From Glaciihabitans sp. (lineage in GTDB: Bacteria; Actinomycetota; Actinomycetes; Actinomycetales; Microbacteriaceae), in NCBI GenBank assembly GCA_025464095.1, contig JAODMF010000004.1, forward strand, positions 1 to 64,000: a stretch of DNA of 64,000 bases, read 5' to 3'. The notes beneath the pieces are model-generated. The model ran no database searches. It was not told the origin of the DNA and saw only the letters and a list, made by a program, of their open reading frames with translations. The position numbers were made by a program, and so were the translations under genes. Positions 53,117-59,496 of this stretch are shown in pieces (positions within the stretch are counted from its first letter, which is position 1; each line of letters opens with the position of its first letter).

Positions 53117-54040
53117 ATGACCACGACAGCTGCCCCCGCCATCACGACGCGACCCTCCCTGTCGCCGCTCGTGCTCATCGCCATCGTGATCACCGTGCTG
53201 GCCTGGGCGAGTGCCTTCCTCGTGATTCGGGGCACGGCGCCGCACTTCAGCGGGGGAGCGCTGGCACTCGGCCGTCTGGTCGTGGGAACCGTCGTGCTCA
53301 GCGTGATGGTCATCGGGCGGCGGTGGGTGAAGCCGACCCGGCGTGAGTGGCTGCTCATCCTCGGATTCGGCGTGCTGTGGTTCGGCGGCTACAACATCGC
53401 CCTCAACATCGCCGAGCAGACGCTGGATGCGGGAACGACCGCAATGGTCGTGAACATCGGGCCCATCCTCATCGCGCTCGGGGCGGGCGTGTTCCTGCGC
53501 GAAGGCATCCCGAAGTGGCTTGCGATCGGTGCCGGTGTGGCCTTCCTCGGGGCGGTACTGATCGGTGTGGCAACCGCCGGCTCGGTGGGGCTGACGAACG
53601 GCGCCGGCATCCTGTGGTGCTTCGCCGCCGCGGTGGCCTACGCGGCGGGCGTGCTCCTGCAGAAGCCGGCGCTCAGGAGACTGCCCGCCGCCCAGGTGAC
53701 CTGGATGGGCTGTGCCATCGGCATGATCGCCTGCCTTCCCTTCAGCGGTGACCTTGTTGCGGGACTGGCCGTCGCGCCCCTCCCGGCGATTCTCGGCGTG
53801 GTCTACCTCGGCGCGATCCCGACCGCGCTCGCGTTCAGCACCTGGGCTTACGCGCTTTCCCGGATGCCCGCGGGGCAGCTGGGCGTCACGACCTACGTGG
53901 TGCCGGCCCTTGTTGTGCTGTTCGGGCTCGCCGTATTCCACGAGGTGCCGGTCCCGCTGGCCATCGCGGGAGGCCTCCTCTGTCTCGCCGGGGTGGCGCT
54001 CAGCCGAAGAAAGAGCCGAGCAATAGTCGCGCAGGAATAG
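53117..54040 (+). CDS. EamA/DMT-family transporter
   Basis: The 307 residues form about ten membrane helices in two EamA halves, the first starting near WASAFLVIRGTAPHFSGGAL and the second near GAGILWCFAAAVAYAAGVLL. YLGAIPTALAFSTWAYAL is a conserved second-half motif. The family exports amino acids or metabolites; the substrate cannot be told. It diverges from the broken ligase gene. Confidence 0.88.
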   Translation: MTTTAAPAITTRPSLSPLVLIAIVITVLAWASAFLVIRGTAPHFSGGALALGRLVVGTVVLSVMVIGRRWVKPTRREWLLILGFGVLWFGGYNIALNIAEQTLDAGTTAMVVNIGPILIALGAGVFLREGIPKWLAIGAGVAFLGAVLIGVATAGSVGLTNGAGILWCFAAAVAYAAGVLLQKPALRRLPAAQVTWMGCAIGMIACLPFSGDLVAGLAVAPLPAILGVVYLGAIPTALAFSTWAYALSRMPAGQLGVTTYVVPALVVLFGLAVFHEVPVPLAIAGGLLCLAGVALSRRKSRAIVAQE

Positions 54041-54049
54041 GATGCGGAC

Positions 54050-54712
54050 GTGACCGACTCCACTGCGACGCATCCTGCAACACCGCCCGCGCGCAATCCG
54101 GGAGCGGTTTGGCTCATTGCCACCGGTTCCGCGGCGCTGATCGGTCTCGGGCTGCAGCTGCTCTCCGGGGTGGGTGGTCTTCCCGGGATGGTTGGCGGGA
54201 TAAGCACGCTGCTGCGGCTCCTGCTGACCTACCTGCTGGGGCCGATTGGCTTTCTCATCGGGATGGTGCTGCTCGCGGGCATCCGCAATGCGGGGTTCGC
54301 AAGCATCATCGGAACGTCGCGCGCCCGCCAGATGCTGCTCGGCGCATTCGGTGCGGGACTCTGGCTTGCACAGGCCGCGTACCTCTTCTCCCTTTTCGAC
54401 ACGCCCGCGACCCGCGGGGTCGGCGAAGTGGTGCGACTCGTCATCACCGCGATCGTTTTTGTGCTGGGGATCGTGTGCGCCTGGCTGATCGACCAGGCCG
54501 GAGTCGCGACCGGCTTCGCCCGGCGCAGCCTCCTCGTCGCTCTTGCCCTGTGGCTCGTGACGCTCATTCTCTTCGCTGGCCCGGTCGGCGCATCAGTGCT
54601 CTGGGACCTGCCGCGGATCCTCGGAGTGCTCATTCTTGGCGTGTCCTGGATGCACGTGGGACAGACGAGATCAACCTCGGTTCCCGCATCCGCCAAAGTT
54701 CTGGCAGAATAG
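54050..54712 (+). CDS. Multi-pass membrane protein of unknown function
   Basis: The 220 residues have about six predicted helices after a Thr/Pro/Ala-rich start. GTG 54050 lies 9 bp after the EamA stop, so the two are probably co-transcribed. The family is not recognised. Its last codons (CTG GCA GAA TAG) also form part of the presumed rpsP promoter. Confidence 0.7.
   Translation: MTDSTATHPATPPARNPGAVWLIATGSAALIGLGLQLLSGVGGLPGMVGGISTLLRLLLTYLLGPIGFLIGMVLLAGIRNAGFASIIGTSRARQMLLGAFGAGLWLAQAAYLFSLFDTPATRGVGEVVRLVITAIVFVLGIVCAWLIDQAGVATGFARRSLLVALALWLVTLILFAGPVGASVLWDLPRILGVLILGVSWMHVGQTRSTSVPASAKVLAE
54702..54710 (+). promoter_or_regulatory. Extended -10 (TGGCAGAAT) upstream of rpsP
   Basis: TGGCAGAAT followed by AGCC matches the sequence upstream of rplS (TGGCAGAAT then TGCC). 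The element overlaps the preceding stop codon. It leaves a leader of about 125 nt before the rpsP GTG. Confidence 0.5.
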
Positions 54713-54841
54713 CCAGTTGAGTCCATCGGCAGCCGACCCTCTAATCAGCAGCCGACAGACACCATCAGAGCTTTTGCGCCGTTTGTGCCCCCACGCCTCC
54801 GGCTAGCAGTTCGCCACCCACACATGTAATTCAGGAGAATT

Positions 54842-55384
54842 GTGGCTGTAAAGATTCGTTTGAAGCGCCTCGGCAAGATCCGGGCACCGTACTACCGCAT
54901 TGTCGTCGCCGACTCGCGCACCAAGCGTGACGGTCGCGTCATCGAGGAGATCGGCAAGTACCACCCGACCGAGGAGCCCTCGTTCATCGAGGTCAAGTCG
55001 GACCGGGCCCAGTACTGGCTGGGCGTCGGCGCGCAGCCGAGCCCGCAGGTCGAGGCGATCCTCAAGCTCACGGGCGACTGGGGCATCTTCAAGGGCGACA
55101 AGAACGCCGTCAGCACGGTGAAGACCAAGGAAGCCAAGGTCGAGTTCCAGGCTGACGAGAAGAAGAAGCCGGTTCTCAAGCCCAAGGCTGAGAAGGCGCC
55201 CGAGCCCGTCGCCGCTCCGGCGGAGGTCGTCGAGGAGCCTGTTGCCGAGTCGGCTGTCGAGGCTGACGCCGCTGTCGAGGCACCGGAAGCCGCGCCCGCC
55301 GCTGCGGAAGCTGCGCCTGCCGCCGACGAGGCCGCACCCGCCGCTGACGAGGCGCCCGCCGCCGAGACGCCGGCCGAGGCCTAA
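54842..55384 (+). CDS. rpsP: 30S ribosomal protein S16 with long acidic tail
   Basis: The first 80 or so residues are canonical S16 ([20 protein letters not shown], then [13 protein letters not shown]). The other 100 are an Ala/Glu/Pro-rich acidic tail ([20 protein letters not shown], then repeats of EAAPAADEA). Actinobacterial S16 often has a tail, but 180 residues is at the long end. AGGAG precedes the GTG. It heads the rpsP-khpA-rimM operon. Confidence 0.96.
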
Positions 55385-55387
55385 GTC

Positions 55388-55624
55388 TTGCTCGCTCAGG
55401 CTCTCGAGCACCTCGTCAAGGGGATCGTTGATCACCCCGCCGAAGTGCAGGTCGTAGCAAAGAACTCTCCACGTGGCGAGGTCCTCGAGGTGCGCGTGCA
55501 CCCCGAGGACCTCGGTCGCGTCATCGGTCGCGCGGGTCGCACCGCGAAGGCTCTCCGCACGCTCATCACGGCTCTCGCCGATGGCAAGCGTGTGCGCGTC
55601 GACGTGGTCGACACCGACTTCTAG
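55388..55624 (+). CDS. khpA: KH-domain RNA-binding protein KhpA
   Basis: The 78 residues form a single KH domain with the GxxG loop in HPEDLGRVIGRAGRTAKALR. KhpA pairs with KhpB to bind small and messenger RNAs in many Gram-positives. It starts with TTG three bases after the rpsP stop, and rimM begins two bases after its stop. The TTG start is supported by the tight packing and family length. Confidence 0.92.
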   Translation: MLAQALEHLVKGIVDHPAEVQVVAKNSPRGEVLEVRVHPEDLGRVIGRAGRTAKALRTLITALADGKRVRVDVVDTDF

Positions 55625-55626
55625 CC

Positions 55627-56229
55627 GTGGCCTCCGCCAAGGCGGCCGGTTCGAACCGCACGCAGCTGCGCGTCGGTCGCCTGACGAAAGCCCACGGCCT
55701 CAAGGGCGCACTCAAGGTCGAGCTCTACACGGATGACCCGGACCGCCGGTTCACCCCGGGAGCGACGTTCACCCTGCAGGTGCCGACGAGCTCGCCGTGG
55801 CACGGCAAGACGCTCGAGCTCATCGAGCTCAAGTGGTACAACAGCCATGCCGTGGGGTTCTTCAAGGACGTCCCCGACCGCACGGCCGCTGAGACCCTCG
55901 TCAAGGCGATCCTCTGGGTGGAGCAGGATGCGGCCGAGCTCCCCGACGAGGACGATGCCTGGTACGACCACCAGCTGGTCGGTCTCGGGGTGGTGCGCGA
56001 CGGCATCCGGATCGGAACGGTGTCGCAGATCGATCACCTGCCCGCACAGGACCTGCTGACGATTAAGACGGATGCCGGCGACGTGCTCGTGCCCTTCGTC
56101 AAGGCCATCGTGCCCACCGTCGACATCAAGGCGGGGACGCTGACCGTGACGCCGCCGCCCGGGCTCTTTGAGCCGCTGCCCGACGGCGCCATCGAGGATG
56201 CCCCCGAGGGACCGTCCACCGCCGACTGA
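55627..56229 (+). CDS. rimM: Ribosome maturation factor RimM
   Basis: RimM helps mature the 30S head by binding S19. The 200 residues contain the N-terminal RimM domain (LRVGRLTKAHGLKGALKVEL) and a C-terminal PRC-barrel (DDAWYDHQLVGLGVVRDGIR, TDAGDVLVPFVKAIVP). A short acidic C-terminal extension follows. In most bacteria trmD comes next at once; here 1.16 kb with a minus-strand gene and two hairpins intervenes. Confidence 0.94.
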   Translation: MASAKAAGSNRTQLRVGRLTKAHGLKGALKVELYTDDPDRRFTPGATFTLQVPTSSPWHGKTLELIELKWYNSHAVGFFKDVPDRTAAETLVKAILWVEQDAAELPDEDDAWYDHQLVGLGVVRDGIRIGTVSQIDHLPAQDLLTIKTDAGDVLVPFVKAIVPTVDIKAGTLTVTPPPGLFEPLPDGAIEDAPEGPSTAD

Positions 56230-56230
56230 C

Positions 56231-56313
56231 CACCCCCACCGCGGAGGATGACACGCCGCGCGCGCCCGCGATACCGCGCCGGTTGCGGCGTGTCGTCCTC
56301 CGCAATGGGGGTG
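56231..56313. repeat. Left hairpin flanking the DUF559 cassette
   Basis: Arms of 29 bp (56231-56259 and 56285-56313) pair with three mismatches. The right arm reads GCGGCGTGTCGTCCTCCGC then AATGGGGGTG. The loop is 25 nt. It begins one base after the rimM stop codon and nearly touches the nuclease stop. The same arms recur at 57294-57376. Confidence 0.85.
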
Positions 56314-56317
56314 CGGG

Positions 56318-57199
56318 TCAGTGCGCGAGGCCAGCGCGGCGGTGACCCCGGGTCCACAGGTGCTCGCCGCGTCCCACCATCGCGACGATTGCCAACTCGA
56401 CCGCCGCCCACTCGAACATGACCTGCGCGTAGGTAAGTCGGATCACGTGGTAGCCGCGGTGCATGAGCGCGAGATCGCGCGCCCGGTCGCGGGCGAATGT
56501 CTCGGCGTCCGCGTGCCACATCGCGCCGTCCGTCTCGACCACGATTCGGTCGCCGACCACGAGGTCGACCCGGCCAACACCCGCGATGGCGACCTGCGTG
56601 CGCACGCGGAGATTCAGCGCCCTCAACCTGAGTCGGGCGAGCGTTTCGAGCCCCGACTCCGAACCGCCGTCAATATCCGACAGTGCACGCGACCCGAGAG
56701 AACTCGTCGCGTCGACAATCCCGGTGAATTCGGTCAGCGACAATTGCCTCCGATTCAGTGCCGAATCGATGGAGGCGACCGCATCCTCGTATTCGGCGCA
56801 CTGCAGAAGCTGGCGTGCGACCTCGACAGGTCGCTCGATCGGCGCCCGCCACCGGTAGAACGGCTCCGCCTCCCAGTGCACGACGACCTCATCCGTAGTC
56901 CGTCCGGTCGCGCGACCGGAGTGCCTGGGCAGGCTGACGTGGAGGCGGGTCGCTTCACTGGCTGACCACCAGCCCAGCAGTCGCGCGGCGCTTTCGCATC
57001 CGACACGACCGCCGAGTTCGACCGCGCGTACCACCAGCGGGTCGGCGTCAAGCAGGCAGACCCACCCCGTGCGAATGCGGTGAATGCTGCGCCGCTCGAC
57101 TGCGCCGCGAATTACGTCGCGCGACACACCAAGGCGTAGGAGTGATGTAACGGATGCGACGCCGCCGGCCTGGCGGAGTGCGGATTCAAGCGATCTCAC
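56318..57199 (-). CDS. AbiEi-like/DUF559 nuclease-like protein in a hairpin-flanked cassette
   Basis: The protein has 293 residues. The N-terminus ([40 protein letters not shown]) is an AbiEi-type helix-turn-helix. The last 90 residues are a DUF559 (Vsr-like PD-(D/E)xK) domain: [24 protein letters not shown], with the acidic residues and His, then [24 protein letters not shown] nuclease is inferred, not shown. GTG 57199 has AGGA 7 bp upstream. It is antisense to and inserted in the rimM-trmD operon, between two matching hairpins. Confidence 0.85.
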
Positions 57200-57293
57200 G
57201 GCGAAATCCTGAGCGGCCGCCCCTGCCCCGGTGGCTGCATCCGCGGGTTTGGGGAAAGTGCGCTCCTCACCGTGCCGGTGGAGGGCAGGCGCG

Positions 57294-57376
57294 CATCCCC
57301 ATTCCGGAGGACGACGCGCCGCATCCCGGCGCAGATCGCGGCCCGCTGCGGCGCGCCGTCCTCCGCAATGGGGGTG
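57294..57376. repeat. Right hairpin flanking the DUF559 cassette
   Basis: Arms of 30 bp (57294-57323 and 57347-57376) pair with three mismatches around a 23-nt loop. The arms match those of the left hairpin; the loops do not. It ends 17 bp before the trmD GTG, so it lies in the trmD leader. Confidence 0.85.
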
Positions 57377-57393
57377 GATGGGATGATGGCCGA

Positions 57394-58074
57394 GTGCGCA
57401 TCGACATCGTCACGATCTTTCCGGAGTTCTTCTCCGTGCTCGACGTGTCGCTGCTCGGGAAGGCGCGCGAACGCGGGCTCATCGATCTCGGCGTGCACGA
57501 CCTGCGCGACTTCGCCCACGACCGGCACCGGACCGTGGATGACACTCCCTACGGTGGCGGGGCCGGGATGGTCATGAAGCCGGAGCCGTGGGGCGAGGCG
57601 CTGGACGGCATCCTGACGCCCGAAACGACGGTCATCTTTCCCTCCCCAGCGGGCGAGCGATTCACCCAGTCCACCGCGCGCGAGCTGGCACTCCAGCCGC
57701 ACCTGGTCTTCGGATGCGGCCGCTACGAGGGCATCGACCAGCGCGTCATCGAGCACACCGCTTCACGCGCGTCGGTTCGGGAGATCAGCCTCGGCGACTA
57801 CGTGCTCAACGGCGGCGAGGTCGCCGCGATGGCGATGATCGAGGCCATCGGGCGTCTCGTCCCCGGCGTCGTTGGCAACCCGGAGAGTCTCACCGAGGAG
57901 AGCCACGAGGATGGCCTGCTCGAGTATCCGAGCTACACCAAGCCGGGCCAGTGGCGCGGCCTGGATGTGCCGCCGGTGCTGTTGAGCGGCAATCATGGCG
58001 CCATCGCTGCCTGGCGCCGCGAGCAGCAACTGGAGCGAACGCGTCGCGTGCGACCGGACCTGCTGCCCGACTGA
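57394..58074 (+). CDS. trmD: tRNA (guanine-37-N1) methyltransferase
   Basis: TrmD methylates G37 of tRNAs using AdoMet, preventing frameshifts. The 226 residues begin [13 protein letters not shown] and include [15 protein letters not shown], the knot-forming [13 protein letters not shown] and [12 protein letters not shown], where the Asp is catalytic. GTG 57394 was chosen because it gives the conserved N-terminus. The gene is cut off from rimM by the hairpin cassette, so it needs either read-through of both hairpins or its own promoter. Confidence 0.95.
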
Positions 58075-58084
58075 GCCGCGCCGG

Positions 58085-58852
58085 CTATGAGCGCGCGGTG
58101 AGCACCAGCGGGCCGTCCGGCGTGATCGCGATGGTGTGCTCGACGTGGGCAGCGCGAGAGCCGTCCTGGCTGCGGAGTGTCCAGCCGTCGATATCGGTGT
58201 AGATGCGGTCGGTGCCGAGCATGAACCAGGGCTCAATCGCGAACACGAGGCCCGATCTCAGCGGCCACCCACGGTGCGCGCGGCCGTCGTTCGGCACGTG
58301 CGGATCGCCGTGCATCGTACGCCCGACGCCGTGCCCGCCGAATTCGAGATTGACCGTGAGGCCGTCCGCGCGCGCGACGGATCCGATGGCCGCGGAAACG
58401 TCGCCCATCCTGCTGCCGGAGTGCGCGGCTTCGATCCCGGCCTCGAGCGCACGCTCCGCGGTGTCGATCAGCCGCAGGTCTTCCTCACGCGGGGTTCCGA
58501 CAATGAGCGTGAGGGCCGAGTCGGCCACCCAGCCATCGACGGATGCCGCGAAGTCGAGGCTGAGCATGTCGCCGTCGCGCAGCACGTAATCGTGCGGCAG
58601 CCCGTGCAGCGCCGCGTCGTTCACCGACGTGCAGATGTAGTGCCCGAAGGGCGACCCTCCGAAGGACGGGTGGTAGTCGACGTAGGTGCTGAGAGCGCCC
58701 GCCGATTTGGTGAGGTCCCGGGCGATCTTGTCGATCGTCAGCAGGTTGACCCCCACCGCGGATGCTGCCGCAGTCTCCTGGAGTACACGCGCGACGAATT
58801 TTCCTGCGGCCCGCATCTCGTCGATCTCGGCCGGTGTGTGGAGTTCGATCAC
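58085..58852 (-). CDS. map: Methionine aminopeptidase, type I
   Basis: MetAP removes the initiator methionine. The 255 residues show all five metal ligands: Asp in LSLDFAASVDGWVADSA (two), His in GGHGVGRTMHGDP, Glu in VFAIEPWFM and Glu in HVEHTIAI. It lies between trmD and rplS on the opposite strand. The GTG start overlaps the tetR stop (GTGA), so it is translated with that regulator. Actinobacteria usually have a second map gene near adk-infA; this copy may be the accessory one. Confidence 0.92.
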   Translation of the reverse strand: MIELHTPAEIDEMRAAGKFVARVLQETAAASAVGVNLLTIDKIARDLTKSAGALSTYVDYHPSFGGSPFGHYICTSVNDAALHGLPHDYVLRDGDMLSLDFAASVDGWVADSALTLIVGTPREEDLRLIDTAERALEAGIEAAHSGSRMGDVSAAIGSVARADGLTVNLEFGGHGVGRTMHGDPHVPNDGRAHRGWPLRSGLVFAIEPWFMLGTDRIYTDIDGWTLRSQDGSRAAHVEHTIAITPDGPLVLTARS

Positions 58853-59496
58853 GACTCACTCGGCAGGTCGGTGTGGTCGCGCAGGTAGTCCCTGCCGATG
58901 CTCCTCGCGGCGTTGATGAAACGCTCGTCGCCCTGGCGGTCGGCGTGGAATGCGCGCTTGAGCAGCGCATCCGTGATTTCGACGACCACTTCGAGCTCGA
59001 AGATGAACTGCTCGGAGGGCTCGAACTCATACTTCTCGCCGAGCAGCCCGGCCAGCGAGCGCGCGAGCACCGCGTTGTTGCTCAGGTCGGGCGAAAGAAA
59101 GCGGTCGGCGATGACGTCGCCGAAGCGCAGCGCGCGAAACCCCGGACGGGTGCGCGCCAGGTCCACGAAGGCATCGACGGCCACGTCAAAGGAGTTGCGC
59201 CACTCACCGGCGTCCCCCTTGAGGGAGGAGAAGATGCGGTCGGCATAGTCCGACATGAAGCTCGCGGCGAGCGCCCGAAGCAGGGACTGGATGTTCGGGA
59301 AGTACCGGTAGACGACCCCGATGGATGAGCCCGACCGCGTCGCGACGTCGCTGGTCGTGAGGCCGTCGATGCCGTTTTCGTCGATCAGTTCGGCAGCGGC
59401 TTCCAACAGGAGCGCGATCCGCTGGGCGCTGCGCTGCTGCACGGGCTCCGTGCGAACGGATGCCAGGACGGAGGAGAGATCCGGCTGGTCGATCAC
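58849..59496 (-). CDS. TetR/AcrR-family regulator
   Basis: The 215 residues carry an N-terminal helix-turn-helix (about residues 25-70: RIALLLEAAAELIDENGIDG, TTSDVATRSGSSIGVVYRYF). The C-terminal ligand domain is unassigned. GTG 59496 was chosen with GGAAAGG 6-8 bp upstream; an upstream reading to 59670 would run through the rplS promoter. It is coupled to map by a 4-bp overlap, and a palindrome 25 bp upstream may be its operator. Confidence 0.85.
   Translation of the reverse strand: MIDQPDLSSVLASVRTEPVQQRSAQRIALLLEAAAELIDENGIDGLTTSDVATRSGSSIGVVYRYFPNIQSLLRALAASFMSDYADRIFSSLKGDAGEWRNSFDVAVDAFVDLARTRPGFRALRFGDVIADRFLSPDLSNNAVLARSLAGLLGEKYEFEPSEQFIFELEVVVEITDALLKRAFHADRQGDERFINAARSIGRDYLRDHTDLPSES

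Follow-up and report, generated by a model that had tools for sequence, protein, structure and literature searches.

A family of REP-like hairpins in Actinomycetales recurrently encloses genes of the DUF559 family

Introduction

How does a single gene come to lie between rimM and trmD with a copy of the same hairpin on either side, and what connects the hairpins with the protein encoded between them? This arrangement is found in the 64,000-nucleotide stretch of Glaciihabitans sp. DNA that was analysed here (the window), where the enclosed gene belongs to DUF559 / MTES_1575, a very common family with, to our knowledge, almost no known function. The recurrent link between hairpins and DUF559 genes reported below offers a cheap and direct test both for the mobiliser of REPs that lack a RAYT and for the function of DUF559 and, if true, would explain how single accessory genes enter conserved actinobacterial operons.

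The rimM-trmD locus

The locus comprises the following features:

55627 to 56229, plus strand: rimM, the left neighbour (Pfam RimM, 8.5e-19)
56231 to 56313, no strand: left hairpin, a symmetric dyad of 83 bp (arms 56231-56259 and 56285-56313)
56318 to 57199, minus strand: DUF559 / MTES_1575 gene, 293 aa (Pfam DUF559, 1.6e-6; MTES_1575, 3.4e-9)
57294 to 57376, no strand: right hairpin (arms 57294-57332 and 57338-57376 as extended)
57394 to 58074, plus strand: trmD, the right neighbour (Pfam tRNA_m1G_MT, 7.9e-66, on an overlapping ORF; protein search)

These coordinates confirm a preliminary description of the locus, which had reported two hairpins around a minus-strand DUF559 gene between rimM and trmD, the left one starting one base past the rimM stop codon (56227-56229) and the right one ending 17 bp before trmD, whose start is most likely the GTG at 57394. 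The left hairpin has the stop codon of rimM on one side and that of the DUF559 gene on the other, and the right one lies upstream of the starts of both the DUF559 gene and trmD. The 29-bp arms of the left hairpin are 90% complementary, with the outer ends paired and two bases further in (CC versus AA) unpaired. The right hairpin has the same 26-bp arm as the left one and, as described previously, an unrelated loop, while the stem ending in CACCCC/GGGGTG given in the same description is better replaced by a symmetric arm of about 26 bp, CCCCATTGCGGAGGAYGACRCGCCGC. Folded as single-stranded DNA, the left and right hairpins score 8.2 and 6.6 SD better than dinucleotide shuffles, respectively. A search of positions 54000-59000 against Rfam gave no match above chance. 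Two familiar kinds of element were rejected at this locus: an intrinsic terminator, as no GC hairpin followed by a U-tract occurs in 56000-57600 and no T-run follows the copies elsewhere in the genome, and a type IV toxin-antitoxin operon of the AbiE kind, as there is no AbiEii toxin gene, a single ORF lying between the hairpins with rimM and trmD as neighbours.

The enclosed protein is predicted to consist of an N-terminal AbiEi-like winged-helix region and a C-terminal nuclease domain of the PD-(D/E)XK type, similar to Vsr and I-Bth0305I. Residues D212, E222, D224, H229 and D238 are invariant in the alignment of its relatives. The AlphaFold2 model is of moderate quality (pLDDT 74, pTM 0.51, three sequences). 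In the fold search the best solved match was the AbiEi antitoxin 6y8q (E=1.7e-5), the C-terminal domain matched the homing endonuclease I-Bth0305I (3r3p_B; TM-score 0.77 by target length, E=2.2e-3), and Rv2827c (1zel) and NGO0050 came next. A sequence search against the PDB returned only weak matches, namely 3hrl and 3r3p, and the weak matches from PADLOC include a homing-endonuclease model. Judged by the model, an AbiEi DNA-binding domain seems to be joined here to a homing-endonuclease domain of the Vsr/I-Bth0305I kind. AbiEi and Rv2827c autoregulate by binding pairs of 23-bp inverted repeats at a fixed spacing of 3 or 13 bp (PMC7319586), and because AbiEi proteins bind such paired repeats, the hairpin dyad is, by analogy, a plausible target.

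The same site was compared in relatives by TrmD protein searches, with the loci read by a covariance model. S. metalliresistens (L115), Salinibacterium ACE_ACT13 (L116) and FW300_bin.11 (L124) carry the DUF559 gene with both hairpins between rimM and trmD, and here the hairpin-DUF559-hairpin unit is inherited within its own clade of four species. The nuclease is 46-48% identical to the Salinibacterium proteins, compared with 82-84% for TrmD, and is hence fast evolving. In Micrococcales 72-143 (L118) the nuclease gene is present at this site without hairpins, and in Homoserinibacter (L117) and G386/G059 rimM directly adjoins trmD, so that empty sites of the kind looked for on the basis of the preliminary description do exist. 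The empty site of Homoserinibacter carries no hairpin and therefore provides no evidence of a hairpin landing pad there. As a side observation, the rimM frame appears to enter the hairpin in FW300_bin.11 (L124:333-417) and ACE_ACT13 (L116:3308-3391), where the predicted C-terminus ...PEDDAP corresponds to the hairpin arm.

A dispersed dyad family

The draft genome to which the window belongs (2.50 Mb, 29 contigs, 83% complete) contains exactly 19 dispersed copies of the hairpin according to the covariance model, all with E<5e-11 and none between 5e-11 and E=1. Since the same element is present 19 times at this significance, the hairpins of the window are not chance structures. The copies align without internal gaps and share the conserved arm, and the spacer between the inner arms, i.e. 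the loop, measures 27 nt in all 19 of them, its sequences being unrelated or nearly so (pairwise identity 0.39 versus 0.35 when shuffled). As the preliminary description had anticipated, many copies are solitary hairpins (17 of the 19). Solitary arms were absent from the 201 kb of this genome that were searched, where every arm with at most two mismatches is paired; the unit is therefore the inverted pair, and the same absence speaks against a DNA uptake sequence, an idea that was rejected. CG/TG and A/G positions vary independently between the two arms. A pairing constraint at the RNA level was not retained as an interpretation, as this independent variation fits recognition of duplex DNA equally well. 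Clean empty sites for a single hairpin were not found, and the intergenic flanks are too diverged for target-site duplications of the MITE kind to stand out.

Related hairpins extend well beyond this genome. Across 84,980 species genomes, a pattern scan matched Salinibacterium, Homoserinibacter and a Micrococcales MAG, in which the outer arms differ yet remain self-complementary (CCATTGC, CCGTTCG, GTTAGGTTGC). The inner arm YGACRCGCCG is common to hairpins from several families of the order, and a core-only pattern, YGACRCGCCG-N14..34-CGGCGYGTCR, matches 91 of 396 genomes from the order. With the reversed pattern as control there was at most one match and usually none. Copy numbers range from 1 to 33 per hairpin genome, with the highest in G387 (33), and are patchy within genus g45 (0 to 24). 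The elements are about 80-100 bp in size and symmetric with lineage-specific ends. Examples of the outer block are CGTCTATGTAGCG (G387) and CGCTGTGGGTGCA (g44); in g45 it is AACGGA and in g58 TTCAGGA or CGTAGGA, each of these with 8 bp after it. Spacer lengths are fixed or nearly so within a genome and fall at 17-19 or 26-29 bp across lineages, with none at 20-25; two classes about one helical turn apart suggest recognition on duplex DNA, the long class comprising only two or three independent lineages. The centre of the G387 hairpins is palindromic as well (69% symmetric pairs versus 26% when shuffled), which fits a more recent burst. Among viral contigs, six stretches carry the hairpin core and none of the six has the lineage arms, and a phage link was consequently rejected.

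The constraint on the element can be read from G208 and G063, two related g45 genomes in which corresponding sites hold the same hairpins, down to the spacers. Across eight orthologous hairpin pairs, substitutions amount to 1/160 in the core arms and 0/96 in the AACGGA blocks, compared with 19/128 in the interleaved 8-bp spacers and 9/231 in the central spacer. To judge by this pattern of substitution, conserved blocks alternating with spacers that are fixed in length yet neither conserved nor complementary resemble a dyad bound by protein and not a hairpin kept solely for its folding.

Several rearrangements were seen near hairpins. In G387, an IS110-family element (Transposase_20, 1.4e-20) splits the right arm at the same point at two sites (L146:1578-1622 and L148:1614-1658); elements of this family, IS621 and its relatives among them, insert into REPs (PMC1525189). 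Two hairpins of G386 that lie 1.2 kb apart with identical spacers and similar flanks (L131:2990-4240) are a recent duplication including a hairpin, and a similar pair is found 7 kb apart in L132. Two further candidates were set aside. An indel beside a conserved hairpin in G208 and G063 (L112:2339-3761 versus L113) proved to be a tandem permease paralogue, present in G208 and missing in G063, that was duplicated or deleted at a locus with one hairpin only, and the apparent empty site L091/L110 was discarded owing to a run of N in L110.

Genes enclosed by hairpins

Genes beside hairpins were clustered into families (305 genes beside 197 hairpins, 12 lineage groups), and DUF559 was the most recurrent of these, being found in seven lineage groups, six of them independent. 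Next, with four lineage groups, come ABC ATPases, whose genes rank with the most abundant in any genome. The six independent lineages are the own/Salinibacterium clade, g58, g59, g44/f9, g104/f8 and g120/f18, which bears out the earlier expectation of hairpin-flanked DUF559 genes at non-orthologous sites. Hairpins lie on both sides of the DUF559 gene in G221 and its orthologue G398 (family f9), in G220 (family f8), where two of the three strict hairpins enclose it, in G302 (family f18), where the gene is DUF559-like, and in G059 (genus g58), which was found by relaxed criteria around DUF559 genes and has one core mismatch on each side; in G251 (genus g59) a hairpin is present on one side only. 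The sites are not orthologous, as exemplified by the dapA-dfrA region in G059 and a position beside MarR and MFS genes in G221. The enclosed protein of G302 scores with our home-made DUF559 profile and falls into no Pfam family. At the position of the nuclease motif where the second acidic residue is usually found it carries Q (L183:2307-3236) and, judging from this residue, is possibly inactive.

Against a background of 55 DUF559 genes in 59.8 Mb, or about 0.1% of genes, the probability of the four independent adjacencies that lie outside the own clade is about 8e-5 (1e-3 with a doubled background), and that of DUF559 occurring in three of ten single-gene enclosures, with the window and G059 left out, about 1e-7 to 1e-6, all of these values being rough and partly post hoc since the counts were drawn up after the pattern had been noticed. 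The association of DUF559 genes with hairpins exceeds chance.

The link is far from exclusive. Nearly all hairpins are without a DUF559 neighbour, most DUF559 genes are without a hairpin, and genomes that lack hairpins commonly carry the family too. All hairpins of G387 and G208, which represent the lineages richest in copies among those examined, were inspected, and none of the 33 and 24, respectively, has a DUF559 neighbour, which shows that hairpins persist or spread without one. A single DUF559 clade as the partner of the hairpins was likewise rejected, as the enclosed proteins are scattered over the tree with 6 label changes, at least 4 of which are forced by supported branches, unlike RAYTs, which form one group (PMC2817692).

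Other genes are enclosed as well, among them a rhodanese gene, an ECF sigma factor operon, and MarR and MFS genes. One comparison captures the change itself. In G221 a multicopper oxidase gene is followed by a hairpin and the next gene, and G398 has, in the same place, the oxidase gene, a hairpin, a GNAT acetyltransferase gene, a second hairpin and the next gene, with flanks that are 89% identical on both sides. Up to its right arm, the single hairpin of G221 corresponds to the hairpin on the oxidase side in G398, and beyond this arm to the far flank, so that a gene and one hairpin must have been gained or lost exactly at a hairpin. The cargo in this sole case is the GNAT gene and not a nuclease. 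In S. metalliresistens (L064:4206-5221) a membrane-protein gene lies between two hairpins between tig and clpP, a layout like that of the window with a non-nuclease gene.

The preliminary description had gone on to suggest that the DUF559 family mobilises or maintains such palindromes. In this general form the idea found no support, given the scattered tree, the DUF559 genes of hairpin-free genomes, the hairpin-rich G387 and G208 and the GNAT cargo. The likeness to REPs flanking a RAYT, also drawn there, applies to the layout and stops at it, since a Y1/RAYT transposase (PF01797) is absent from all 16 genomes searched, including the own one.

Candidate explanations

The reading that we tentatively favour, and which we regard as quite possible if short of probable, is that these REP-like dyads are recombination or landing sites, occupied most frequently by AbiEi-Vsr nucleases, which would probably cut there and thereby home in. 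Each dyad runs from an outer block that differs between lineages through about 8 bp to the inner block YGACRCGCCG and a spacer of fixed length, followed by the mirror image. Maintained mainly right behind genes, the hairpins would serve as sites of recombination and landing, and single genes would become enclosed to give hairpin-gene-hairpin units. No other family occupies such units nearly as often as DUF559, and the most likely reason for this excess would be recognition of the dyad by the nuclease and a break in the DNA there, whereupon repair would copy the nuclease gene into other hairpin sites by way of the homologous hairpins on its flanks. The outcome would be a unit that resembles a REPtron in outward layout, behaves in a homing-like manner and has no HUH transposase. 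Observed here are the family of repeats, the constraint acting on its blocks, the repeated enclosure of genes and the one gain or loss of a gene with a hairpin at a hairpin. To these, the reading adds two steps that we infer, namely binding or cutting of the hairpin by the nuclease and a spread driven thereby. A bolder form, which we consider conceivable and on balance doubtful, would see a prokaryotic mobile unit of a new kind, in which a predicted AbiEi-Vsr endonuclease enclosed by two hairpins would recognise the long dyad and drive its own homing between hairpin sites as well as the spread of the hairpins and of other single genes trapped by them, i.e. a REPtron built on a homing-endonuclease fold and widespread in Actinomycetales.

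The position of the hairpins invites a different explanation, in which they are 3'-end elements of the host, acting as bidirectional terminators, transcript stabilisers or insulators with arms under selection, and enclose DUF559 genes as solitary accessory genes in need of isolation. Hairpins of the own genome, and most of the related ones, begin 0-20 bp past a stop codon, and those between convergent genes make up nearly the entire intergenic region; among 91 hairpins classified on the basis of simple gene calls, 38 lie between convergent, 43 between tandem and only 10 between divergent genes. The hairpins are furthermore very stable, and their arms are constrained after insertion. What makes this explanation unlikely in our view is that no U-tract or terminator pattern accompanies them and that several of them, including the right hairpin of the window, are placed between divergent starts, a position in which a terminator is senseless. 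Nor would a terminator need a sequence shared across families, variable 8-bp spacers or fixed loop lengths, and the dominance of one gene family with a share of 0.1% among the enclosed genes is left unexplained.

Alternatively, some other transposase or recombinase might spread the hairpins as non-autonomous miniature elements, with DUF559 genes as passengers caught between two copies. Such a mobiliser would agree with the lineage-specific arm families and with the patchy copy numbers within a genus, with the gain or loss of a non-nuclease gene at a hairpin, and with G387 and g45, which are rich in copies without an enclosed nuclease while related DUF559 genes are common elsewhere. We consider it distinctly unlikely, as the 16 genomes searched hold no Y1 transposase, no other family recurs at hairpins to the same extent, the next being the abundant ABC ATPases, and passengers do not predict the dominance of DUF559 in single-gene enclosures. 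That the dyad is merely an AbiEi-type operator, to which the nuclease binds through its winged-helix domain so that its own gene is repressed from both sides while dispersed copies regulate or sequester the protein without any mobility, would suit the AbiEi match of the N-terminal fold, the autoregulation of AbiEi and Rv2827c through paired repeats (PMC7319586) and a block-and-spacer constraint resembling protein binding to duplex DNA, but it is improbable given that most copies lie behind genes, away from promoters and far from any DUF559 gene, that the nuclease gene of the window has the left hairpin at its 3' end, and that the gain or loss of the GNAT gene with its hairpin would go unexplained.

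Comparison with known systems

The hairpin family is matched by no curated RNA family and by no searchable paper. Our literature search returned papers on REPs and RAYTs and none that deals with hairpins of this kind in Actinomycetales or with DUF559 genes beside palindromes, an absence that is weak evidence as subscription journals were mostly uncovered. The sole recent functional study of the family that we found concerns Caulobacter VsrA (PMC12907096), which shares the DUF559 / Vsr-like endonuclease family with the window protein and differs in being linked to a solitary cytosine methyltransferase, with no hairpins described in the accessible part of that paper.

Integron cassettes and their attC sites resemble the present units in having a structured recombination site right behind a gene, conserved arms around a variable centre, and gene and site that are gained or lost together. 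In contrast to integrons, the hairpins occur at single chromosomal sites without arrays, and their arms are without the R/L box pattern of attC as far as inspected. With the AbiEi antitoxins of type IV AbiE systems and Rv2827c, the protein shares its N-terminal fold (6y8q, 1zel), and AbiEi proteins likewise bind paired inverted repeats of 23 bp (PMC7319586), whereas here no AbiEii toxin gene adjoins and a C-terminal nuclease replaces the antitoxin domain. Free-standing Vsr-like homing endonucleases of the EDxHD type, such as I-Bth0305I, provide the closest solved catalytic fold and are also fast-evolving single nuclease ORFs between conserved genes; two whole flanking palindromes with 17 further copies in the genome and an N-terminal AbiEi-like domain set the present gene apart from them.

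A close parallel is with the REPtrons formed by REPs and RAYTs (PMC2817692, PMC3733652). These, too, feature dispersed extragenic palindromes mostly downstream of genes, insertions of IS110-family elements and, in some genomes, one enzyme gene tightly placed between two palindrome copies. They differ in that here a nuclease of the PD-(D/E)XK type takes the place of the Y1/HUH transposase, the enclosed enzymes are not monophyletic, copies number 1-33 compared with more than 100 for REPs, and the hosts belong to the order Actinomycetales. REPs are also shorter (20-40 bp) and carry an unpaired GTAG/CGTC tag at one end, while the hairpins described here are symmetric, about 80-100 bp long and without a tag that we noticed. 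REPs of the CGTC class are said to have no dedicated transposase (PMC3733652). Enclosure by two copies as in REPtrons is found in the window and in five further lineages, in G251 on one side only.
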